Source: Coprinus comatus
Taxonomy: Eukaryota > Basidiomycota > Agaricomycetes > Agaricales > Agaricaceae
Direction of reading: 5' to 3'
Length of the DNA stretch: 64,000 nucleotides
Assembly (NCBI GenBank): GCA_034638255.1
Contig: JAWPGT010000014.1
Coordinates: 124,001-188,000 of the forward strand
The notes under the pieces: generated by a model
Seen by the model: only the letters and a program-made list of their open reading frames with translations
What the model was told of the DNA's origin: nothing
Databases searched by the model: none
Position numbers and translations under genes: made by a program
Part shown: piece by piece, positions 17,928 through 35,194 of the stretch
How the letters are laid out: every line of letters begins with the position of its first letter
How positions within the stretch are numbered: the first letter of the stretch is position 1

Positions 17928-18141
17928 TGTCAGGATTGCTCCAGGCAGTCCCAATGTCAAGAGTTGATGGACTTGTAGCTTGTAATCACTTTTCTGATCA
18001 TGTGGTGTTACTGTGTGATGTCACAGCTTGCAGAAGTGTCCTGCAGACACTTGGTGACCTTCTAGTCTCATACCATTGTCTGCAAGTGAGTAGTTATAGT
18101 TTAATATCATGTTCCAGTCTCATACCATTGTTTGCAGTGTA
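17928..18141 (+). repeat. Copia A LTR, 3' truncated by a Tc1 element
   Basis: It starts TGTCAGGATTG and follows the family A LTR for about 214 bases, with more substitutions than the copies at 1986 and 16886. It stops at the TA target of the Tc1 element. No polypurine tract precedes it, so it was probably a solo LTR. The remaining 80 bases of the LTR are not found on the far side of the Tc1 nest at 33399. Confidence 0.85.
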
Positions 18142-18353
18142 CAGTAAGGGACAAAACCATTCCAATGTTTTGAAGTACTGCCAAGATTGCTTTATATCTC
18201 AGGAACTACATAGTCTACTCACTTGTAAATTTAATTGTAGATAGCCTAATCCATTGCCTATTGGTTTCCAAAGTCCCATTATGTAAGCTAAAAATGCGTG
18301 GGAGATATGAATTAATTATTATTTTATACTCATTGGAACAGTTTTGTCCCTCT
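18142..18353 (+). repeat. Tc1 left terminal inverted repeat (212 bp)
   Basis: It is bounded at each end by inverted copies of a 13- to 25-base sub-repeat (AGGGACAAAACCATTCCAATG outward; the inner copy reads CATTGGAACAGTTTTGTCCC). The whole 212 bp reappears inverted at 33185-33396. Confidence 0.9.
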
Positions 18354-18379
18354 CAAAAATTATATGCAAAATGGATATT

Positions 18380-19396
18380 CTAATACTTGGTATAGGCTCC
18401 CTTAGCCTGTAAAACTGCCTGAACCCTTCTAGGCATACTTTCTATCAAATTCTGACATATTTTTGGCTTTATGTCATTTCATTCTTTTTGTACTTTTTCC
18501 CATAGAGTATGCATACTATTAGGAGGAGAATCATACTCTCCTAGCTTTATTTTGAGATGATTCCAAAGATGTTCTATGGGATTAAAATCTGGTGATTGTG
18601 GGGGCCATACCATGATCTCTAATCCAGACTCTTCAAGCCATTTGGTTGCCTTTTTGCTCTTGTGTTTAGGGTCATTGTTTTGTTGAAATACCATATCCTC
18701 CACATTCTTGCCATAATACTCAATGCTTTGCTGCAGTTCATCCTCCAAAATTTGAACATATAGGTCAGCATCCATCTTGCCTTCAATTCTAGTAGCATAT
18801 CCAACCCCTGCCCACAACATACAACCCCAGATTATAAGATTTCCTCCACCAAATTTTACTGTTTCTTCTACCAGCCTATTATTCAACTTCTCTCCAGCCT
18901 TTTTCCATACCCAAACTCTTCCATCTGACCCAAACCGGTTGATTTTAGACTCATCTGTCCAAATTACCCTTTTCCAATCCTCCAATGTCCAATCAGCATG
19001 CCTCTCTACCCATTCCAACCTTTTCCTCCTATGAATTGCATTGAGTTTAGGTCTTTTCCACTTCACTACAGCCTTCATTCCAACACTTTTGAGTCCCCTT
19101 CGAACTGTTTTGGTTGATATAGGCTGGGCAACAACATTTTGGAGTGATTTGATAACTTGAGATGCATTATCAGCTTTGTGAGATGTAATAAGGTGGACCA
19201 AATAATGGATATCAGAGGAAGAAAGCTTAGATGGATGACCACCAACAGATTTAGAAAGGGTAGGTCTGTGTTTGGAACAAAGTCTAGAGATAGTACTAAG
19301 TCCCAAACCAGTCATAGAAGCAATTTGATGAGCAGAGTTGCCTTTATCCAGGTAAGAAAGAACTTAGTTGATTTGGGTAGAAGAAAGAGCACGCAT
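18380..19396 (-). pseudogene. Tc1/mariner transposase (338 codons, two internal stops)
   Basis: The frame starts at the ATG at 19396 (MRALSSTQIN) and ends with TAG at 18382-18380. A helix-turn-helix lies in residues about 11-45 (HQIASMTGLGLSTISRLC). The DDE catalytic core has WTDESKIN, NNDPKHKS and WPPQSPDFNPIEHLW, the last with a Glu at the DD34E spacing. Two stops interrupt the frame: TAA at codon 11 and a TGA at 18481-18479, where Trp would be expected. Between them 278 residues are open (19315-18482). The copy is thus close to intact but unlikely to make full-length enzyme. Confidence 0.88.
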
Positions 19397-19530
19397 AATA
19401 ATAGAAGTGCAGTGGGGGGTTTATTGTATACCAGGGAATCAGTACACCTACTTATACATTATGTGGAATGGTCATGTGATTTTATTTGGATTTATTTGGA
19501 TGTAATAAACAAAGTCATGTGTTCTAGAAC

Positions 19531-19992
19531 TGTTATGAACATTAGCATGTCACCAGATTATTTTAAGGAAGTTCCAGAAATACCACTTGATTCTATTTCT
19601 AACTGAACTATTATTAACTTACACTAATTACTCAGCCAGGCTATAGTTAGTGCAATTATCTTTAGTATAGTTATTTTCTTTCATCTTGTCTCATCCCTTG
19701 TGCTCTTACCAGTTTTATACGTAGTTATTACATGTTTCACTTTTGGTACAAGTTTCAGTAGGAGAAGGGATAGCTATATGTTTCATCTTTGTTTCATGTA
19801 TTATTGGACTACTCATAGACAGTATAAATAGTCACTTGTATTAGCCCTTGGAGCCTCAAGCTTCAAGTTGGTTAACTTCTAATCTACTCATTCTACAACC
19901 TTCTGCCTGAACACCAGAACAGTAGTTTAACTTGTAGAGATTGAACACCTGTCTCAAGCGGCTTAGTGCCCAAGAGATCTAGGATTATAACA
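19531..19992 (+). repeat. Gypsy 5' LTR (462 bp)
   Basis: It begins TGTTATGAAC and ends ATTATAACA. A TATA-like AGTATAAATAG lies near 19820, a likely promoter core. Compared with the 3' LTR it carries TG where the other has CG or CA at several places. Confidence 0.93.
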
Positions 19993-20340
19993 ATAACTTG
20001 AAGCTTTTCCCTACCACTGTTCACCTTCCTCTGGGTTCTATGCTTTATCGCTAGCTATTACACCAGTCCCCATTCTAGTCATCACACTCTATCACTATCC
20101 GAAGACACCCTCATCAAGTATTCAAGCCCTGTTGCTGTCTCTTGACTTACCTGAAGAATCCACTTGTGTAGCCCATTGGTGATTTGACACAAGTTACCCC
20201 GAAATCAAACCCACTCATGTAGCCTCTTGGTGATTTGACATGATACATTCCAGTAGGAATCCCTCCCTTGTAACCCTTGACTCCAGCAGTTCCTGGTCTA
20301 CTACCTCAAGTAGACCCCCAGCAAGATTTCTCTCAGAAGA

Positions 20341-21855
20341 ATGCCTAGCAGAGAGCCCGCTTCCTCTAGAACCCCTAAAGTCCCTAAACCATATCAGAAA
20401 CCTCCCCAATTTCCTACCTGAAGGGATGACCCATTTGAAACACACATCCCAGCCCCAATACAAGCTACCACTTCCTTGGAATACATTCCAGAAACACTTT
20501 CCCCAACCTCCCCAACACCCAACCTGCCACCACCACCACCAAGGAGAGTCTTATTCAACCGTCCTTTCTCAGTACAACAACCAACTACTCCGTACTACCC
20601 TTCTGACCTCGCACCACCACCAGACACACTCAGCCAACTTATCACTGGTTCAACAACTACTTCAAGAAGGCTATCCACCAGATGAAGTGACCTGAATCTA
20701 CCTTCATTTAATCGCAGAGCAACACATACGCCTGACAACACCTCGCCTCCAAACCCAACCCATCACCAGCCAACCCCAATACCACCACTACCCCTGCCTC
20801 CACCACCACCCCCACCAGGCCCAAATCCAGCAATGGCAGGAAATCCACCAGCACACTGTCCCCTCAAACTCCCAAATCCCAAATACTTCACAGGCAGTCA
20901 TTCCACATACGAGAGATGGAAAGAATCCCTTGATCTATTCTACCTCACTGACCCAGATAGATTCCACAATGATGAAACAAAAATCATCTTCACACTTGCC
21001 CTATTGGTTGGACTGGCAGCCACCTGGAAAGCAATGTTCTTACAGTCAAAATGGGACACTACCAATAGTGTCTACAACTTTGGCACATGGAACGCTTTCA
21101 TCACTGCCCTCGAAACAAGTTTCTGAGAAGGCATCAACCCAGCCCTCAGCAACATTGCGATTCTCTCAGGACCTGCCAACACACTCACAGCATGGGAAAA
21201 TGCAGCCCACAGTGCCAACCACATACTTCAAGTTCAACAAAAGTATAGTGAGAAACACCCAATTCAACCGAAAGCTACATTTTATCCATGCTCTCAGCAT
21301 CGCAAAGTTCAAAACTTTCGTCAATCGAACCCTGTCCTGTGTTATGTTCCGCCACCCTCTTACCCAAAAGACCCAAATGCCATGGATATCAACTATATCC
21401 AGAAAGCAATCTACAACATCCACATCAACAAAGATGAGAATGAGGAAATCAATTATGTCAATTCATATGACGAAGAAGCTGAAGAAGAACCCCAGGAACC
21501 AACAGACCCCAAAGAAATGATGGCTGCAATCATTGATCATGTCTTCACTGATGAACAGAAGAAGGACTTCCATGATGGCAAGTGCTTCTTTTGTAAGAAG
21601 ACTGGACACTTCACACGAGAATGCCCAGCAAAATGAAAAGATGCATCAAATCGACCCCGAAACTTCCCTCACCCCAAATACAATAATTGTGGAAACACCA
21701 ATTTTCGAAAAGGGAAATATCAATCAAACTTAATGCAACAAATTAATAATCTCATTACCAACGCAAGTGAAGAAGAAGTTGCAGAAGTTTACAACCACTT
21801 TTCTCAACAGGACGAAGGATCATCCTATGCTGAAGAAATAAAGGATTTTGCTTAA
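20341..21855 (+). pseudogene. Gypsy gag with four in-frame TGA codons
   Basis: One frame runs from the ATG at 20341 (MPSREPASSRTPK) to TAA at 21853-21855 with no indel, interrupted by TGA at 20419, 20683, 21124 and 21634. The N-terminal third is proline-rich. A retrotransposon gag core follows from about 20866 (YFTGSHSTYERWKESLDLFY), and a CCHC knuckle (CFFCKKTGHFTREC) sits near the C-terminus. No shared motif fixes the residue expected at these four stops, but each would be explained by CGA changed to TGA. Confidence 0.8.
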
Positions 21856-24800
21856 AGAGACTAGCCACCATGTCTAGATCTCAGGATTCGTATTCTCAGA
21901 CTGCTGCTACCCCTATTTATCAACCTTTGACTTCCATTCTGACATCTACACTGGCTTTACCAATAGATGCTGTACAGTTACATGGAATTGGATCTCAATC
22001 TATTTATGTTCCCACACATTCAACAAGCGCAGCTCAGAGAAATACTAAAAGCATGGACATCCTTGCCCTGATAGACTCAGGAGCAGGAGGAAATTTCATT
22101 GACCCAGCACTTGTACAAAAATACAATTGGCCAATCAAGAAACTGGACAAACCAATTACAGCTTACAATGCCGATGGAACCAAAAATGGAATTTGCAATT
22201 ACTATTGCCCAATAATAAGCAAAATTAATGGACGACTTACCTGAGTACAAGCCAAAGTAATAGGCCTTGGAAAACCACGAATCATCTTAGGATTCCCATG
22301 GTTGCAAGAACATAACCCAGATATTAATTGGAAAGAGAAAACTCTTTACTGGAGAGAAGAAGACAAGAATAAAACCTGCTATGAAAATCTTATCCAAACT
22401 ATCTCTGAAAATCAAGTGCAGATTAATTGAGTACTCTTAGATGAAGAAAACTCAGTGGAAATTAATGTCAAGACCTCTCATTCCCACACTATTGCTCAAC
22501 AACATGGAGAAAAGAAGGATGATAACCCTTATCGAGTAGTTCCACCCAAATTCCACCCCTATCTCAAAATCTTCGATAAGAAAGCCTCCAAATGATTCCT
22601 GTCTAAAAGACCTTGGGATCACAAAATTGAAATGAAGAACATGTTCAAACCCATTTCAATGAAACCCTATCGACTTTCCCCTATTGAGGAAGAAGAACTC
22701 AATAAATTCCTTGATGAGAATCTCGAAAAAGGCTATATTTGCCCCTCCAAATCACCAATGGCCTCACCATTCTTTTTCATTGCTAAGAAAGATGGAAAAT
22801 TAAGACCATGTCAAGATTATTGGTATTTAAATGAACACACAATCAAGAATGCCTATCCTATTCCTCTCATTTCATCCATTCTCAATAAACTCAAAGGCTC
22901 AAAATGGTTCATGAAACTCAATGTATGCCTTGGATATAACAATATCCATATCTGAAATGGAGACCAGTGGAAAGCCGCATTTAAAACACATAGAGGATTA
23001 TTTGAACCAACCGTAATGTTCTTTGGCATGTGTAACTCCCCCACCACCTTTCAAGCAATGATGGATGCACTGTTCCGCAAACTCATTGATAAAGGAGGAG
23101 TTATAGTCTACATGGACAATATCCTTATTCATGCAAAAACTAAAGAAGAATTATGATGCCTTACCAAAGAAGTTCTAAAAATCCTCTTGGACAATAACTT
23201 ATTCCTCAAAACCGAAAAATGCGAATTTGAAAAATAACAACTCGAATATCTAGGAGTAGTCATCACTCCAGATCAAGTCTCTATGGACCCAGCCAAACTC
23301 AAAGGAATCAAGCAATGGCCCATTCCCAAATCCATTCGAGATGTCCAAAAATTTATCGGATTTTGCAATTTTTATAGGAAATTCATTCATCAATATTCCA
23401 CCCTTGCAGCACCACTCAATGTGTTAACATCGAAAACCAAAACATTTGAATGGACACCAACCTGTCAAAAAGCATTCAAAAACCTTAAAAGCCGATTCCT
23501 CAAAGAACCTATCCTCATGGTTGCCGATCAAACTAAACCCTTTGAAATCAAATGTGATGCTTCCGCTTTTGCTACCAGAGCTGTCCTCCTCCAACAAGAT
23601 ACAAATGGAGTTAAACACCCTGTAGCCTATCATAGCAAGACACTCTTGCAACCTGAATGAAACTATCACTGTTCAAAACAAGAATTTCTCGCCATAATCC
23701 GTGCCCTCAAAGAATGGAGATATTATATTGAAGGTTCCCCCACCAAGACAATCATTTGGTCTGACCACGAAAACCTAAAACGATGGAGAAAACCCAAAGA
23801 CTTAAACCATTGACAAGCACGATGGACCGCTTATTTACAATGATTCAATATTGAAATACAACATATCCCTGGAAAGAAGAACAGACCTGCAGATTCATTA
23901 TCCCACTGCCCAGATCATGCCCCAGCCCTTCACGACAATCACAATGTTGTTGCTATGCCAACTTCATTGTTCAATAATGAAAACAACAATGAAACCAGAT
24001 CAGAAATATCCCGAAATGAAAATCCCAATAAAACCAGATCAACATCATCCCAAAAAGGAAATCCCACTAAAAGCTTAAAAGCTAAACTACCTAATGCCAC
24101 CTCCTATTCAATGCCACTCCCGAAATTAACTTCATCAATCAAAGAAATTACCACATCCATAAATATCATAGATGAAACCCTTATGAAACAAATCAAGGAA
24201 AAGACCCTGAATCAGAATACACCCCCCAATCAACCACCTTATGACATTGATGACAATGAGATCCCCCAATTCAATGGAAAAGTTGTTATCCCTGACAATC
24301 TCACAATACGACGAACCCTCCTCCACTGAGTACATGATCATATTACAGCTGGACACCCAGGCATTAATGAAACTGCTCACAAACTGGCTCAATACTGTTA
24401 TTGGCCAGGAATGAAGACATTTGTCAAAAACTACGTTAAAGGCTGTGGAACATGTCAACAGTACAAGATCAATCATCACCCCATCAAAGTTTCCCTCCAA
24501 CCCATAAAAGGACCAGCTTCTATGAGACCCTTCTCACAGATCAGCATGGACCTCATCACCGATCTTCCCCCAGATGGACCCTATGATTCAATATTGTCCA
24601 TAGTGGACCATGGACTTACGAAGGGGATAATTATAGTCCCAACATCAAAAACTGTCACCGCTGACGAAGTAGCAGAAATTCTGATTGAACGACTCTTTTC
24701 AAGATATGGAACTCCCAAAAAGGTCATCTCTGATCGCAGATCACAATTTATTGCCAAATCAATGCAACAGTTTTATCAAAAACTCAACATCACCCCTTCC

Positions 24801-25117
24801 TACTTGACCGCCTATCATCCCCAATCAGACGGATCAACAGAACATTTCAATCAAGAAATCAAACTATTTTTAGCAATTTATTGTTCATCAAACCCGAATT
24901 CTTGGGCCAGATCACTCCCAATTCTCGAATTCAATCACAATTCTCAAACGCATGCAGGAAGAGATCACACCCCCTTCAAACTGATGTATGGCTTCACTCC
25001 CAAAATATTCCTGACATCTGAAGAACCATCAAACATACCCGCTCTCAACAATTGTTTTGAATATTTGGAACAATCACGAAATCAAGCCCAGATGGCACAT
25101 GAACAAATGCATCAAAT

Positions 25118-25434
25118 TGTTAAAACAAGAGCATAGCATATATGCTAAGGTAGGTACGACTTAGACTTACTGAGGGTGGTTGTTGAGGTAGAAAATGTTA
25201 AAACAAGAGCATAGTGTATGAAACATGGGTAGGTATGACTCTGGACTTACTGAGGGTGTTGGTTGTTAGTAGAAAAGGAACTAAAGTATATAATGCAAGA
25301 GTACAAACTTATATACATATTTACAGTGGTCCGTGCAAGAATATACTGGGTCACATGATATAGATCATGAAGATATATTCGTCAAGCATGATGCCATACG
25401 AGAATGTCATTGTAGAACTAATAATAGTTCAACA
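25118..25434 (-). repeat. 3' LTR of copia B (317 bp, with internal tandem duplication)
   Basis: It is about 100 bp longer than the partner LTR because a segment starting GTTAAAACAAGAGCATAG occurs twice, at about 25119 and 25198. It also differs by substitutions and a short AT-rich insertion. Ends are TG...CA. Confidence 0.85.
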
Positions 25435-25470
25435 CTCCCCTGAATACGAACATGGCAGCTATGAAGCACC

Positions 25471-28400
25471 CTATGTTGGGACCATATTATTTGAGCGCTT
25501 GGCAGCACTATATGTGGGATTAGAAAACTCCAACCCGTAATAGTTATCACGGAAGTATTCAAACTTCACACATCCAAGATTCTTCGTGAGAAGATCTGCA
25601 GGGTTCTCAGTGCCTGGGATAAAAAAGAGCTGAACCTTCTTTTCATCAATTACTTGACGAATGAAGTGGAAAATAATGTCTATGTGTTTTGATCTCTTTT
25701 CGACAGCAGGGTTTTGCATGATAAAGAGAGAGCCCATATTGTCTCCACAAATATCCATTGGTTCATTGTTGTGTAAACCAAGTTCAGTCATTAGGCTTCT
25801 GATCCAGATGGACTGACGGCTACAATCGGAAATAGCCATGTACTCAGCCTCTGTGGACAATAACGCAATAGTCTTTTGTGATCAACTGACCCAGGCCACT
25901 GGACAGGATGCAACAGTGGACAGATAACCAGTTTGGGATCTTTGAGTAGAAGGATCACTAGCCCAATCAGAATCACTATAAGCAATGAAACCCTCATTAC
26001 CAGAACCATCAAGCGTCATTTGTATTCCTGAGTCGCTAATAGGTATCTACAAATATAGAGAGCTCTACATAAATGTTCTTCCGTAGGGTTATGAGAATGT
26101 TGACTAAGCTTAGTCACAGCGAATGAGATGTCCGGACGCGTGCCAATAGCAATGTACAACAGTGATCCAATCACCTGTTGGTACCTAGAACAGATGGAGG
26201 AGTTGATCAGCTTGTCGTTAGGAACTGGATAGTACCCTTCTGGCAGTGGAGTTCACACTGGTTTGGTATCACAGTCAGAACCAGTGATTTTAAACCTTTC
26301 CAGGATCTTTTCTAAATAAGCACATTGATCAAGATAGATCTTTTGATTAGCTCGATCTCTCCTGATGTGCATACCGAGAAATTCTTTGACTTCTCCAAGG
26401 TTGCGGCATTCCCACTTTTTCATGAACTCTCCTTTTAACTTTTTAAGTAAGGCAGAGTCATTTCCCATAAAAAGTATGTCGTCAACATACACGACAGCAA
26501 TGACAAACTTGCCATCTTTTTGACAATATATATAAATACCGGCATCGGATTCACATTGCTTGAAGCCTAGTTGGCTCATGGAAGATGCCATCTCCTTCCA
26601 CCAGGCCAAGCCAGCTTGTTTAAGGCCATACAATGCTTGTTGTAACCTCCACACCATAAATTCCTTTCCCTTAAGTTTGAAACCTTTGGGTTGATCCATG
26701 TAGATTTCCTCATCCAGTTTGCCATAGAGATATACTGTCTTTACATTGACAGACTCAATGTCCCAGTCTTCAAGGGCAGCTAACCTGAGCAGGATTCGAG
26801 CGGACTCATATCTAACTACTGGAGAGAATAATTCATCAAAGTTGATGCCCTCGACTTGAGAAAATCCTTTAGCAACTAGTCTAGCACATTTGCGACTGTT
26901 GCTCTTTTCATTAAAGACCCATCTATTTTTTTTACAGCTTTCCTTCCTTCCAGAAGTTTCACCAACTTGTAAACTTCTCGCTTTTTAAGTGCAGCTAGTT
27001 CTTTGAGACAAGCTTTGTGCCAGTGTTCTCATTCCTCCAGATTCAATTTTACAAGATCACAGAATTGCTCAGGAACAGATGCGGATGCCTTAGCCAATAA
27101 AAAGTTCATCAATTCTAACCCCCCTTCCTTAGTAATCTGTTGAATCTTACAATCTGCATCTTCTTCCATTGCGTCAGGTTGTTGTTCCCTCACATATTGC
27201 CGTGAGGCATCCTCGTGTTGTCTGCATATTTCATCGCAACATTCTCAGACTTCCTCAGGCGAAATAGGATGTGGATCTGCTTTAGGGTGATCTTGTTGAT
27301 TTCGGATTCTGAAATCGTGACCACAGAGACGAACTCTCCCCTGAGGTGGTAGAGGTTCATTGTGATTATAGTCTCGTAGGATCTCGGACGGATGTGTTCT
27401 CTCCCCATAAACATTGCCTTCTCTAAACGGAACAAACTTTTCTCTGCCAGAACGGCGAGGTAAAGGTTCAACTGGTCTAGGAGGTCATTCAGGTGATGGA
27501 GAAATGGGACAGGTGGAGTCAGATCGAGGAGCAGGGCTTGGACTCGGGTGATGAATAGGTGATCCGGGATCAGCATATGATAATGCATCATCATCATCTT
27601 CATCAGTGACTTCCTCAACTGTTGTTTTCCTGGTAGCAGTTTTACTCGGACCAGGAACAGGAGGTTTTTGAGAAGTAGATGGTCCTGGAATCGAACCTTG
27701 CGGTCTAGGCGGTAACGGTGTTCTATCACTGTCATCTTGTCGAGATGTGTCCATAGGATCATCAGGATAAAGATCAGGTGTAGTATCCTTGTCATCTTTG
27801 TCAGACGCCGGAGGAGGAGGATTTATTTTGGGGTTTTTTGTAGAACTGGAGTCCTTACGTTTTTTGTGATCTGGCTTGCATTTGGGATACCAGCCCTCAT
27901 CGAAAATAGCTGGTTCACAGTATAGTGACGCACCAACCTAGTGTGAACATGGTGGAGGGCATCTTCCATAACTTTGAATGTTGTGATGTGTGATACATGC
28001 ATGAACAATTTTCCATTTGAATGAAATATGTTGGTTCGCTTTAAATTTGACTCACTCCTCATTCCTTGCAGCCATAAGGCACCAGGTGAAATGATTCTAG
28101 TGGAGAGAGACTTTAAATAATAGACCGGATACAGTGGAGTCGTTCTAGTGACTCTGTCTACTTCGTGTTGGAAGAGAACTTTCCCATGACCTTTTATGGT
28201 TATGAGGTTGTTGCTGGCATCTCTGACACCACCAAATTCTCCATTCTCTAACTCGATAAAGTTGCTAATGTGTGGTGTGCAATTAAAGCTAGCGCCTGAA
28301 TCAAGGAGCCAAATAGCAGACTCTCTAGCATAATTAGGTTTACTTTTATCTTCACAGAAGTTGCATAAGCAATCATCAAGATGTTTTCCTGATTTGTCAC

Positions 28401-29240
28401 CATTTTTAGGATCTTTTAAATATTTCGTCAGTAAGACAAAACGATCACAAGTTGAAACAGGAGAAGGGATCATATTCAAAACGGGAGTACAAACAGTAGT
28501 AGATGTAGAAAGAGAACTCATAATAGTCTGACTAATGTCCGGCAGTCTGATATGGTGCTCTAGAACATGGGGTCTGATGGAGCCATTGGTTCGTCCCCCT
28601 ATTTGGGGGCATCTCTGTATCTCCCATTTAGTAAGGAAGAACTCTTGAGAGAAGAAAGGAACATACTCATTGTACCAACCATCATTGACCTCATAGTCAG
28701 CATCTTCATCAAAGTTCGGATCATTTATGTAGGCATCGGCCTCAGCGATCGCTTCAGGAACATCAGAAGGAGGGACATAAGAGGGAGACTTTGATTGACA
28801 TGTGGGGGACCCAGGTGTAGAAACTGAAGATGAATCAACTTCCTCTTCAGGAAGGATTGTAGCAACCATTGCATCAAGTAATGGTGGAGGTGACGGGGGA
28901 GAGGGTTCAGCTGGGCCAAAGCTGAGGTGAGCACCCATCCTTTCAAAGACCTCTGTCTTCTTTTTCTGATACCAGGTATGACTGACCAGATGTCTGACTG
29001 GAGGAAGGAGAGTGGCACGAGGAGCAACATAAGGCTCTACTCCGTGCACAACAACTTCATCAGCAGCCTTTTTCAAAGCCACTGCCTTGAGTTGTGGATC
29101 AGTAGTCTTCATCCTCTCAATGAGAGAATGAGTGGAAGAGGGTTTGTTAGTGGGAGTCATGAAAGACTCCAGAATGGTGGGAGACAAGATCATATTTACA
29201 TCACCATCATCACCTTCAGCTTTGGTTGCCGCCATGTTTT
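25471..29240 (-). pseudogene. copia B pol remnant lacking the integrase core
   Basis: From 29240 downwards: an acidic Pro/Ser-rich linker, a protease motif WLLDSGASFNCTPH (near 28300), and a pre-integrase region to about 27900. Then a break, and the frame resumes in the acidic linker that normally follows the integrase (27754-27485). RT follows (MDQPKGFKLKGKEF, AVVYVDDILFMGN near 26490) and then RNase H (MSTEAEYMAIS, CGDNMGSLFIM, 25860-25471). Stops and frame changes occur throughout. The lack of the DDE core suggests an internal deletion. Confidence 0.8.
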
Positions 29241-29245
29241 CCATG

Positions 29246-30420
29246 TCAATGCTTCTTCTTTTTATCCTTATCCCCCCCAGAAGCATCACTGGAACTGGAG
29301 TTCTGGTTCTGATTTGGTCTAGAATTAGACCCAGAAGCTTTCTGTTGTTGTTGTTGGGGCTGCTGTGGAGTGCCACCAGAGGGTTTGGAATAGGGCTTTG
29401 CACCCTTATAGTTTTTAATGCCGGTACTAGTGGCACAAGAAGCAGATGCGGCTCCATGGGAGTCCTGCCAAGCACCCATAATTGTGTCTGAAATGATTTG
29501 GACTGTTAAGGTTGAAAGGGAGTTACCATATTGAACCAGGAGAGCAGCACAAGTAGCACTCCATTGGGGAGGAATGTGTGTCATCAACATGAGAGCCCGA
29601 AGGATCTCAGGAACATTGATGGGGGGCAAGGCTTGCTGTAACTGCGTGAAATAGTTCCGGAAGGTGGAGATCTCCTTTGAGGGATCATTCACACCACTCA
29701 GTCGGAAGGAATCTGCAGAAGCATACAGCTCATAAGCTGCACCTGCTGAAAATGTGCCATATGCAGTTCTCAGGTGGTTCCATAAACCATCAGAGGTGTG
29801 TTGGCCATGCCTAAGCATGTCATCACTCAACCGGGAGTTGATCATCCTGAGAGCAAAGGCCTCACAATTATCAAACTTTTGAATCTCATTGATGTTTGTA
29901 GGGGGTACCATTGCGGTGGTGGCAGTTGCAGAGGAACCACCGACAGCTGCAGGCCTTCCAGTGCTGCCATTGATCATTCTCGCTACACACCATCCATCCA
30001 TGTGTCAGAATGGTAGAGAGTGATGTTGAGAATGAGAGTGAAGTTGAGAGAGAGTTAAGCTCAGACACAGACACAGACACAGAAAGAAGGGAATTGATTG
30101 GATGGTTTGGCTAAGACATGAGGGACTTATATATCTACCAGAACAAAGAACAACCAAAAGGGGAGAACAATAAGCACCCTTGCCAGCACACAAAGGGAAT
30201 ATGTAAGTAACATAATAAGGGAAAAGAACATTATGAAAGAGTCCAGAACATCAGGATAAGATAAGTGGAGTGATTAGGAAAGATGGATAAGATAAGGAGA
30301 TATCTGGGAAAAACCTAACACCATGTGGATCATGTTAGCAACTGACATGATGCGAGCCTCCCAAATTTGGTAGTCTCCAGCACTGGTCAAGATTGGAATT
30401 GAAGGGATTAAAGAGGCCAT
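29246..30420 (-). pseudogene. copia B gag, split by a solo LTR
   Basis: It begins at the ATG at 30420 (MASLIPSIPILTSAGDYQIW), is interrupted at 30325, and continues from 30002 to 29246. Omitting the solo LTR and one CCATG lets the frame continue as NMIHMDGWCVARM. The body is a UBN2-like copia gag. It ends in a Gln/Ser/Asn-rich basic tail (SSSSDASGGDKDKKKKH) with no CCHC knuckle, unusual for this class. Confidence 0.75.
30003..30320. repeat. Solo LTR of an unidentified family (318 bp)
   Basis: It has TG...CA ends (plus strand TGTCAGAATGG to AACCTAACA) and perfect 5-bp flanking duplications CCATG (29998-30002, 30321-30325). On the minus strand a TATA-like TATATAAG lies near 30130. It is the innermost layer of the nest. 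Confidence 0.82.
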
Positions 30421-30704
30421 GATCAAAGTTTGGAGATATAGATCTACAACAAAACAATTGTCAGAACTGTGAACTAAAACAGCATTACTGCGCTTCTGTT
30501 CTACTAAGTTACATGCTGTCCATCTAACCGAGTATGGTAAGGGTATGCATAGAGTACACTGGTAGGTCAAATGTCTCAAGTGAGCGGAACTTGGACTTCC
30601 CTCACAGGTGAATCCAGCTTTACCCTCGAGCTCAGTGCTGCACAACAAGTAGTACTCATCAAGTGCACATCGTGAGTCGTACAGGCTAACCGGGGCCCAT
30701 AACC

Positions 30705-30921
30705 TGTTAAAACAAGAGCATAGCATGTATGCTAAGGTAGGTATGACTTAGACTTACTGAGGGTGGTTGTTGAGGTAGAAAAGAACTTAAGTATATAATG
30801 CAACTACTACAAGGTTTATATACATTAATGCAATGGTCCATGCAAGAACATATTGAGTCACATGTTCATCTAGCATAATGCCATTAGAGAATGTCATGGA
30901 AGAACTAATAATAGTTCAACA
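30705..30921 (-). repeat. 5' LTR of copia B (217 bp)
   Basis: On the element strand it runs from TGTTGAACTATTATT to TTGTTTTAACA and is followed at once by GGTTATGGGCCCCGG, the half-tRNA-type primer-binding site (30692-30704). Confidence 0.88.
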
Positions 30922-31401
30922 CAAATTATGGCCAGTAGAGCCAACCAACCACTCCAAACACTCCAAGTTGGACAAAAGGTCTGGCTAGATAACCGCAATC
31001 TTCCACTTCAATACAAATCTGGCAAAATGGCACAAAGACGAGAAGGCCCATTCCCCATAACAAGAAAACTAGGACCTGTCACCTATGAGCTAAAATTACC
31101 TAAAACATGGAGAATTCACAACAAGTTTCATGTACAACTGTTACAACCCCTCGAGGAGAATGATGTATATGGAAAAATATATGCAGCACCTCCCCCTGAT
31201 CTAGTTAATGGAGAAGAAGAATACAAAGTAGAGGCAATCCTGAAACACAAAGGAGCCCCTGGATGACGAAAATACCTAGTCAGATGGAAAGGATACTCCC
31301 CAACCAAAGACTCTTGGCAAGATGAAACTGATTTGGAAAATGCTGGTGAAACATTAACAGAATATAAGAGACAACATAAAATACACAACTAATCATCCAC
31401 T

Positions 31402-32673
31402 ATGTCTCAACCCACCACTCCCACCCTCACTCCAATCCAAACCAACACTTCTTCCCCATCTACCCTTCAATTACCACCTTCTGCTTCTCCCAATGGCAAC
31501 AACTCCCTACCTTCTTCCAACCCACAGACTCCCGATTTCATTGAGCTCAGGGCTCAGCTGCTCTCTCCCACAACTTCCACCCTTGAATATATGGTTTCAC
31601 TCAAACCATACTTCTATTTCCTCGAATCCATTCATCGAAAGCCTTATGAGCTTGGCTTCTTACTTCACAAAATTTGGCAAGCAATGGATGATTTCCTTTC
31701 TCACTGAGCAAAAGAGGAGCTCTATTGGCAAGAAATCGCCCAATTACATCGTACTTTACAATCATTTGGTCTCCCTGAACCTTACAACCATGTCTATCAA
31801 TGTGTCCTCCATTCCTTGGACAAGAGAAGAAATTCACTTCCTTCGCTCTTCAGCCCTGACTCTAGACCACGACATGAAAGCATTAGGCTCCATGGACTTA
31901 ATCACCATGGAAACCCCAGTCGACCTTCTCAACTGAGTAACATACTCCACAATCAGCTTCACTCAATTCCAGGAATGGTCCTGGGCTCTCAGCTTCTGGG
32001 AATCAGGCTTTCTATTGACTGCTCTGACCAGCGAAATATTCCCACACAACATCTCCAACAACAATCGCTGCCTTGACCAAGACCCACACTTCAGAGGTGC
32101 ATTGCATGTGGTCGATCTGACCATCACTTACCTCAATGCGAAAAGTATTCGTGCCTTTAGTGTGGAACAAATGCCCCCAGACACCTCGTCAAACACTGCC
32201 CCTGTAATCCCTATTGTGGAGCCCCAACCAAAGCAGTGCCTACCCATCTTCTCAAATAACACTACCAATGAAACCCCTTCCTCAAGTGTCATGGTCTCCC
32301 ATGTCTCCACAGAGAACAATCACATCTCAGCCCTGTTGACCCCAACAGGAACCAAATCAGCCAACCCTCCACCTCCAGGAACAGCCTACCTCCTCCAACA
32401 GATCTTTGTTTATCCCTGCTACCAACACCAGCACCTCCCACAATATCAACAATGGGTGTTAGATTTGTTGAAGAACCGGAGATATGCTGCAGTCGATCCA
32501 TCAGGCCAGCCATGACTCTACCTGGATTGAGTAATCCAAGATATCCTATCCACCACACCCGTACATTGCCATGCCCACCACGAGCACCTATGCCACCAGG
32601 AGTCAACTACCGCAATTACGGAGAAGACTACGATCCAGTCGCAGATGCCAACATCACCAGATCCCTGCTCTGA
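31402..32673 (+). pseudogene. Third open region of the gypsy element, downstream of pol (unknown)
   Basis: It starts with ATG 10 bases after the pol stop (MSQPTTPTLTPIQ). It continues through a TGA at 31705, probably shifts frame near 31800, passes a second TGA at 31934, and runs on to 32515, with a possible further segment to 32673. The N-terminus is Ser/Thr/Pro-rich; the middle is hydrophobic and charged (LKPYFYFLESIHRKPYELGF). I see no signal peptide or membrane segment and recognise no domain. It could be an accessory gene of the family or a displaced gag-like piece. Confidence 0.5.
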
Positions 32674-32715
32674 GAATAAGGAAAATGAGGACATTTCGCA
32701 TAAAGAAGAGGATAA

Positions 32716-33177
32716 TGTTATGAACATTAGCACATCACCAGATTATTTTAAGGAAGTTCCAGAAATACCACTTGATTCTATTTCTAACTGAACTATTATT
32801 AACTTACACTAATTACTCAGCCAGGCTATAGTTAGTGCAATTATCTTTAGTATAGTTATTTTCTTTCATCTCGTCTCATCCCTTGCACTCTTACCAGTTT
32901 CATACGTAGTTATTACATGTTTCACTTTTGGTACAAGTTTCGGTAGGAGAAGGGATAGCTATATGTTTCATCTTTGTTTCATGTATTATTGGACTACTCA
33001 TAGACAGTATAAATAGTCGCTTGTATTAGCCCTTGGAGCCTCAAGCTTCAAGTTGGTTAACTTCTAATCTACTCATTCTACAACCTTCTGCCTGAACACC
33101 AGAACAGTAGTTTAACTTGTAGAGATTGAACACCTGTCTCAAGCGGCTTAGTGCCCAAGAGATCTAGGATCATAACA
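32716..33177 (+). repeat. Gypsy 3' LTR (462 bp)
   Basis: Same length as the 5' LTR, with nine transitions between the two. A purine-rich tract (AAAGAAGAGGATAA) directly precedes it and is a likely polypurine tract. Confidence 0.93.
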
Positions 33178-33184
33178 AGAACTA

Positions 33185-33396
33185 AGAGGGACAAAACTGT
33201 TCCAATGAGTATAAAATAATAATTAATTCATATCTCCCACGCATTTTTAGCTTACATAATGGGACTTTGGAAACCAATAGGCAATGGATTAGGCTATCTA
33301 CAATTAAATTTACAAGTGAGTAGACTATGTAGTTCCTGAGATATAAAGCAATCTTGGCAGTACTTCAAAACATTGGAATGGTTTTGTCCCTTACTA
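33185..33396 (-). repeat. Tc1 right terminal inverted repeat (212 bp)
   Basis: Inverse copy of 18142-18353. It follows the right copy of the gypsy target duplication (33178-33182) by two bases, so the gypsy insertion site lies just inside this repeat. Confidence 0.9.
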
Positions 33397-33398
33397 TA

Positions 33399-34443: not shown

Positions 34444-34769
34444 AATATGACACAACTTATCAATTGAAATTACACAGAACCAATAAAAGATACTCAATAT
34501 TCCATGTATCAAAATTGAAGAAATATGTAATGAACAACAAAAAGCAATATTCAGAACAAGAGCAAGAACAAGAACAACCAGAAGGAATTACAACAAAGGA
34601 AGGAGAACACAAACATGTAATGGAAGACATAATAGATGAAAAGACAGTAGAATGTGGTGGAAAACAATATCTTATTCAATGGAAAGGTTATAGCAAAGCA
34701 TACAATGAATGGTTACTGAGAAGAGAATTATTGAAGAATGAAGCATTAGAGAAGTGGGAAAAGAAATAA
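34444..34769 (+). pseudogene. Gypsy pol C-terminal remnant with chromodomain
   Basis: The frame opens inside pol (TYQLKLHRTNKRYSIFHVSK), has a Glu/Gln repeat, and ends in a chromodomain (GKQYLIQWKGYSKAYNEW) and TAA. It comes from a different gypsy family than the element at 19531. No LTR was found beside it. It is the last clear transposon piece before the host genes. Confidence 0.8.
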
Positions 34770-34863
34770 AACAATAAAAAATAGAGAAAGAGTGAGTGTA
34801 AGTCATTGACTTACAATGAATACATAAAGGAAATGATATATATATAGAATCATAGTATAAAAG

Positions 34864-35016
34864 ATGCAATTCGTAGTATTAATATTAGTTATCCTACCTT
34901 TCTCTTGTAAATCAACTATCTCAACAATAGATCAAGGTCCTGAGTGCCTTACCCTAAGTGTTTCACATCAGGTCAAGACATGTCCTTTCACAAGCACAAA
35001 TAAAACAATAGAATAA
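34864..35016 (+). CDS. Small open frame, 50 aa, signal-peptide-like (uncertain)
   Basis: It starts MQFVVLILVILPFSCKS, a hydrophobic stretch with a plausible cleavage site, followed by a short Cys-containing part. It lies 94 bp downstream of the gypsy chromodomain remnant. It could be the start of an envelope-like ORF of that element or chance. I do not recognise the protein, and the length alone is not evidence for a gene. Confidence 0.2.
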   Translation: MQFVVLILVILPFSCKSTISTIDQGPECLTLSVSHQVKTCPFTSTNKTIE

Positions 35017-35194
35017 GCAATAAAGTTACCAAAACAACACATTCAAAATACATAAATGACTCCATGCCCACACTCAAATAAAAGGACAGTCCAACAATAA
35101 TGATGGAAAAAAAGTCTTATAGAGGTACAAGCGATAAAAAAGATAAAAATGGTATACAAAACTCAAGAAAGAATCTGATGAATTACAACAACAG

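Follow-up and report, generated by a model that had tools for sequence, protein, structure and literature searches.

Agaricus bisporus belongs to the Agaricaceae, as does the mushroom whose DNA is analysed here, and in Neurospora crassa the main context of RIP is CpA. It has been reported, in passages of PMC7473861, that CpG is the main methylated context in A. bisporus and that hardly any methylation lies outside transposons, the methylated repeat clusters being clearly bordered from their flanks. Passages of the same paper argue against RIP in this species from its unchanged AT content. RIP of N. crassa is described in part of PMC4352252 as C-to-T change in repeats. CpG-biased decay of basidiomycete transposons is already in print (passages of PMC4352252, PMC4014442, and PMC5381629), and the case presented in this study is a well-documented further example.

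The window analysed is a stretch of 64,000 nucleotides. Positions 19531-33177 hold a Ty3/gypsy chromodomain retrotransposon, which sits inside a Tc1 element and is interrupted by a copia element (Table 1). Two LTRs with TG...CA ends, a 5-bp target duplication, and the domain order zf-CCHC, RVT_1, RT_RNaseH, Integrase_H2C2/rve mark it as a chromovirus. The Pfam profiles RVT_1, RT_RNaseH_2, Integrase_H2C2, and rve matched pol pieces lying between stops, and the chromodomain (PF00385) scored above its cut-off after SH3_Tf2-1. A protease profile matched below its cut-off. The last frame in the element contains Cys/His-rich motifs and may be an extra gene of the gypsy family; the single 27-residue piece of it that was examined had no Pfam match. 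In sister Tc1 copies, the two Tc1 parts are only 2 bp apart. The uninterrupted site was seen in 4 of these copies among 9 loci displayed, the other 5 being displayed at the opposite end. The copia start (25118-25435) consists of 78 bp of one LTR followed by a diverged second LTR-like copy (25196-25435). Two copia insertions or recombination may be involved in this irregular end. The alignable 78 bp of the copia LTRs differ at 2 places, 1 of them CpG-type. Since the second LTR-like copy makes the pair irregular, copia LTR dating was set aside.

Table 1. Features of the nested transposons, in window coordinates
Feature	Position	Strand	Details
Tc1-like DNA transposon, larger part (gypsy insertion target)	18140..19530	-	Pfam DDE_3 and HTH_Tnp_Tc3_2; transposase frame about 18479-19363 (-)
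Gypsy target duplication AGAAC, left	19526..19530		from sequence
5' LTR of gypsy	19531..19992	+	462 bp; 2 CpG remaining
gag frame with CCHC zinc knuckle (zf-CCHC)	20317..21636	+	4 in-frame TGA, the last one at the frame end
pol frame: RT, RNase H, integrase	21756..25116	+	11 TGA and 1 TAA; RT box YMDN
Copia target duplication CAAAT	left 25113..25117, right 30922..30926		from sequence
Nested copia	25118..30921	-	RVT_2; repeats; CpG obs/exp 0.37
pol remainder past the copia: SH3-like domain of the integrase C terminus, and chromodomain	30991..31389	+	SH3_Tf2-1 and Chromo on two pieces; 1 TGA within
Downstream frame after pol	31390..32672	+	3 TGA, 2 TAA, 1 TAG
3' LTR of gypsy	32716..33177	+	462 bp; 5 CpG remaining
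Gypsy target duplication AGAAC, right	33178..33182		from sequence
Second terminal repeat of the enclosing Tc1	33185..33398	+	100% complementary to 18140-18353; 214 bp inverted repeats

Other copies of the element were searched for in its own genome (35.7-Mb assembly, 134 contigs) with positions 22000-23500 as the query. At least ten sisters at 88-94% and at least 29 copies at 72-74% were found, both counts being lower bounds as 40 of the 118 candidates were scored. All ten sisters were used for comparison, and 4 of the 29 copies at 72-74% served as the outgroup. A preliminary description of this DNA, made from its letters alone, had claimed CpG hypermutation with both strands hit and proposed counting transitions by dinucleotide context against other copies. 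In this count, transitions were concentrated at CpG. Between the window copy and the ten sisters, transitions were 5.6 to 31.5 times as numerous as transversions, and 40-62% of the transitions were CpG-type. When changes in the window lineage were polarised by the outgroup and columns possibly hiding a CpG were removed, the changed fraction was 0.326 for CpG, 0.040 for CpA, 0.017 for CpC, and 0.048 for CpT, with transversions at 0.002-0.004. The CpA signal of the first polarised count was discarded as mostly due to hidden CpG columns, with TG in one copy and CA in others; the stricter count lowered it from 0.089 to 0.040 in the window copy. Changes found in a single copy of the 11, at sites flanked by unanimous neighbours, numbered 11/50 at CpG, 60/2,412 at CpA, 28/1,732 at CpC, and 28/2,063 at CpT; AT-to-GC transitions numbered 99/9,929 and transversions 38/16,186. 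At 183 CpG columns, the window copy retains CG at 56 and has another dinucleotide at 2, and the two strands are equal, with 68 TG versus 57 CA. Decay of the CpG columns ranged from 17% to 91% across the 11 copies, the window copy ranking fourth highest with 69%.

The decay of the window copy by codon phase 1, 2, and 3 was 35/55, 20/31, and 66/88, and its hits are blind to codon position and coding. Synonymous-type and replacement-type hits numbered 154 versus 132 in the six least decayed copies and 46 versus 75 in the window copy (Fisher P = 0.0047, optimistic because the copies share ancestry). The least decayed copies also have an excess of TG on the sense strand (for example 46 to 25 in L005, 23 to 9 in L079, and 13 to 3 in L080), which, given the synonymous-type lean of the six, fits selection on source elements. 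CpG decay did not track AT>GC plus transversion changes across the 11 copies (Spearman -0.30, P = 0.37), and it therefore does not behave as a plain clock among them. In L002, L004, and L078, the sisters with the strongest CpG decay, CpA-to-TpA change was more frequent than in the other eight copies (27/442 versus 33/1,970). Decay correlated with CpA change at 0.56 (P = 0.07, not significant) and, much the same, with CpC/CpT change at 0.58 (P = 0.06).

Since the two LTRs of an element are identical on insertion, their differences arose afterwards. Nine differences, all transitions, had been described for the gypsy LTRs, and the same nine transitions were found here. Seven of them are CpG-type, in 5 dinucleotides, and the remaining 2 are CA/TA. 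TG in one LTR facing CA in the other, likewise described at two places, is present at 2 CpG dinucleotides. CpG copies were hit at 7/14 in this pair, and other sites differed at 2/447. Four LTR pairs whose target duplications match gave 17/66 hits at CpG copies and 6/1,802 differences at other sites, a per-base ratio of 77. With all six candidates, the counts were 33/114 at CpG and 9/2,657 elsewhere (ratio 85; bootstrap over pairs 55-141); the four matched pairs are given separately because the flanks examined around pairs C4 and C90 had no matching target duplications. The CpG share of hits was homogeneous over the six pairs (chi-square P = 0.71). The CpG rate ratio in vertebrates is roughly tenfold, a figure that the 77- to 85-fold ratio here exceeds. 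Together, the sister, outgroup, and LTR-pair counts support CpG hypermutation with both strands hit.

For gag and pol, about 14 in-frame TGA codons, one TAA, and no TAG had been reported; we counted 15 TGA, 1 TAA, and 0 TAG before copia. The frame continuing past copia (30994-32672), which that count did not include, holds 4 TGA, 2 TAA, and 1 TAG, and pol may naturally terminate at the TAA of 31390. Both frames are continuous save for the stops, in agreement with their description as free of frameshifts, and two sisters with 3,894 alignable columns showed 2 gap openings each. The proposed change of CGA to TGA was borne out: the aligned stretch contains 14 TGA codons, and for 13 of them CGA is present in at least one of the ten sisters. 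The single TGA for which no sister has CGA is common to 7/10 sisters. The preliminary description had regarded TGA at the same sites in sisters as evidence against its reading. Such TGA was indeed found in some sister at 9/14 codons, but other sisters have CGA there (13/14) or CAA (12/14), and the occurrence of TGA, CGA, and CAA at the same codon is in keeping with a hypermutable CpG that was struck more than once.

Opposite sister codons that read CGA, the window copy has TGA 13 times, CGA 12, CAA 5, TGC 2, and TGG 1. Its arginine codons thus became stop, Gln, Cys, and Trp, the last two as claimed before. Opposite sister codons that read CAA or CAG, the window copy has TAA/TAG once and CAA/CAG 56 times. 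The comparison of 13 TGA against 17 CGA/CAA with 1 TAA/TAG against 56 CAA/CAG gave a Fisher P of 1.3e-6, and the TGA excess is not chance. The RT box YMDN had been attributed to a change of CGAT to CAAT. Of the sisters, 7/10 were aligned at the box, 5 with D and 2 with N, and D was present in 4/4 outgroup copies.

The preliminary description had also stated that the Tc1 repeats keep their CpG and that the gypsy layer was targeted. In this study, we found that the Tc1 has 4 CpG in 1,391 bp. The proposed comparison of CpG obs/exp across layers gave 0.08 for this Tc1 and 0.35 and 0.32 for the gypsy parts, and the enclosing Tc1 is thus even lower in CpG than the gypsy; copia and the whole 35-kb block are depleted too, the first 12 kb of the window standing at 0.24. 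Among 12 Tc1 copies, merely 14 CpG columns exist in 1,391 bp, and CG, TG, and CA are all present at 12/14 of them, so the Tc1 decays too. These values and the Tc1 sister copies rule out gypsy-specific targeting. Low in CpG to begin with, the Tc1 continues to lose it. With one CpG in each and slow change at other sites, its repeats look identical. In the Tc1 family (window 18140-19530 and copies L010-L020), the aligned transposase frame is stop-free in 4/12 copies, 2 of which are incomplete matches. The family may live with very few CpG.

In one-kb bins, CpG obs/exp was 0.04-0.57 in the 35 bins up to 35,000 and 0.50-1.00 in the 29 bins beyond. A step near 35.0 kb parts a transposon block (1-35000) from a gene block (35001-64000), as a methylation border would. 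The DNA adjoining the block at 34461-35190, taken as single-copy sequence, has 2 CpG versus 16.8 expected, but a part of it (about 34796-34990) has matches of 72-87% at 3 further places, and the region is a weak test of spreading, with old repeats possible there. A gene for heme farnesyltransferase (COX10) adjoins the block. Among the 7,992 best word-sharing candidates, proteins from Macrolepiota, Leucoagaricus, and Leucocoprinus share 79-81% identity with its product, and Macrolepiota and Leucoagaricus are Agaricaceae in the NCBI taxonomy.

Candidate CpG methyltransferases were found in the same genome. PF00145 matched at four places; two of these fragments match DNMT1, one PDB 7r76, and one DNMT2. 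The structure 7r76 was deposited as Rad8, and we take it to be Cryptococcus DNMT5. Exon fragments matching DNMT1 and DNMT5 suggest that the host has CpG methyltransferases of both kinds. The genome also gave 17 matches to Tet/JBP dioxygenase, 14 of them above the Pfam cut-off. A 2025 paper (PMC12730594) reports that DNA transposons of fungi carry TET/JBP genes.

The change at this locus is CpG-specific, struck both strands after insertion, and extends over a transposon block that ends sharply. It is very likely explained by methylation of CpG in transposons and subsequent deamination of 5-methylcytosine, with methylation at this locus read from the pattern of substitutions. A chromodomain Ty3/gypsy element of an Agaricaceae-like mushroom inserted into a Tc1, and the host would then have methylated CpG within the transposon block. 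Over many generations, 5-methylcytosine would have become thymine on either strand. CG turned into TG or CA, and CGA arginine codons into TGA or CAA, with other bases nearly unchanged. Tc1, nested copia, and the remainder of the 35-kb block would have been eroded in this way too, up to the border with the gene block. CpG-concentrated transitions on both strands are consistent with such decay, apart from the extra CpA change of three sisters, which would not be expected from CpG methylation alone. The high CpG ratio and the lack of a plain clock also weigh against the methylation reading.

Ordinary pseudogene decay has no special context and would ascribe the TGA excess to chance or codon composition. 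Stops are expected in a dead element, and some of those after copia are TAA or TAG. However, the contrast between CGA>TGA and CAA/CAG>TAA/TAG, the 7/9 LTR differences at CpG, and a CpG rate far above that of every other context speak against it. The context counts refute this explanation, and we assign it almost no probability. Hardly more credible is that TGA was already present when the element entered the genome, either read as an amino acid or carried by a dead passenger copied by other elements. TGA shared with sisters at 9/14 codons, including the CGA-less one common to seven of them, would agree with such an origin, but the CGA and CAA of other sisters at most of these codons do not, roughly half of the LTR CpGs were changed post-insertion, and hits in the body of the element ignore codon position.

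A RIP-like process, in which repeats are recognised before meiosis and their CpG cytosines converted in bursts, with CpA perhaps as a second target, carries more weight but is still unlikely. Such a process would suit the confinement of strong hits to repeat-rich DNA, the uneven decay among copies that other changes do not match, the high CpG ratio of the LTR pairs, and the raised CpA change in the three most decayed sisters. CpG-biased RIP-like change has also been reported for basidiomycetes in passages of the three papers cited above (PMC4352252, PMC4014442, and PMC5381629). A RIP-like process predicts strand runs, but the window copy had 60 runs versus 63.0 expected (P = 0.32), and none of the ten sisters gave P < 0.05 (lowest 0.070). 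The preference for T before CG (TpCpG), the signature reported for Pucciniomycotina in part of PMC5381629, was absent here (0.25 versus 0.21-0.30), and CpA is secondary, being raised in three sisters only. No burst was seen, as CpG and other changes stand in one proportion across the six LTR pairs, and PMC4352252, in the passages concerned, did not find a RID/Masc1 gene in its basidiomycetes. It is a little less likely still that this Agaricaceae lineage has an active CpG-directed hypermutation that acts copy by copy and takes CpA as a second target where treatment was heavy, in genomes whose unchanged AT content was read as absence of RIP. CpG-limited loss would hardly shift AT content.

Under the methylation and deamination reading, this locus would be a clean worked case in which CpG methylation can kill a mushroom retrotransposon, putting stops in place of arginine codons in an otherwise intact frame. 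It is the transposon block, rather than one element, that the damage follows, and AT content alone would overlook such CpG-limited decay. The CpG ratio of 77 to 85 times other bases provides a testable number for plain deamination versus a RIP-like process.

RIP of N. crassa resembles the present case in its C-to-T change in repeats and differs in context, CpA not being the main one here (0.040 versus 0.326 for CpG). Microbotryum and other Pucciniomycotina share CpG transitions in basidiomycete gypsy-like elements, according to passages of PMC5381629, with Horns et al. 2012 as cited there, whereas the element studied here lacks their preference for T before CG. In Rhizoctonia solani AG8, also an agaricomycete, part of PMC4014442 describes CpG>TpG change with TGA as the expected stop codon. 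Genes and repeats are equally hit there and the change lies between nuclei, whereas the genes here keep their CpG. Methylation was measured in A. bisporus and CpG loss was measured here, but the CpG loss has the same layout as the transposon methylation described in passages of PMC7473861.
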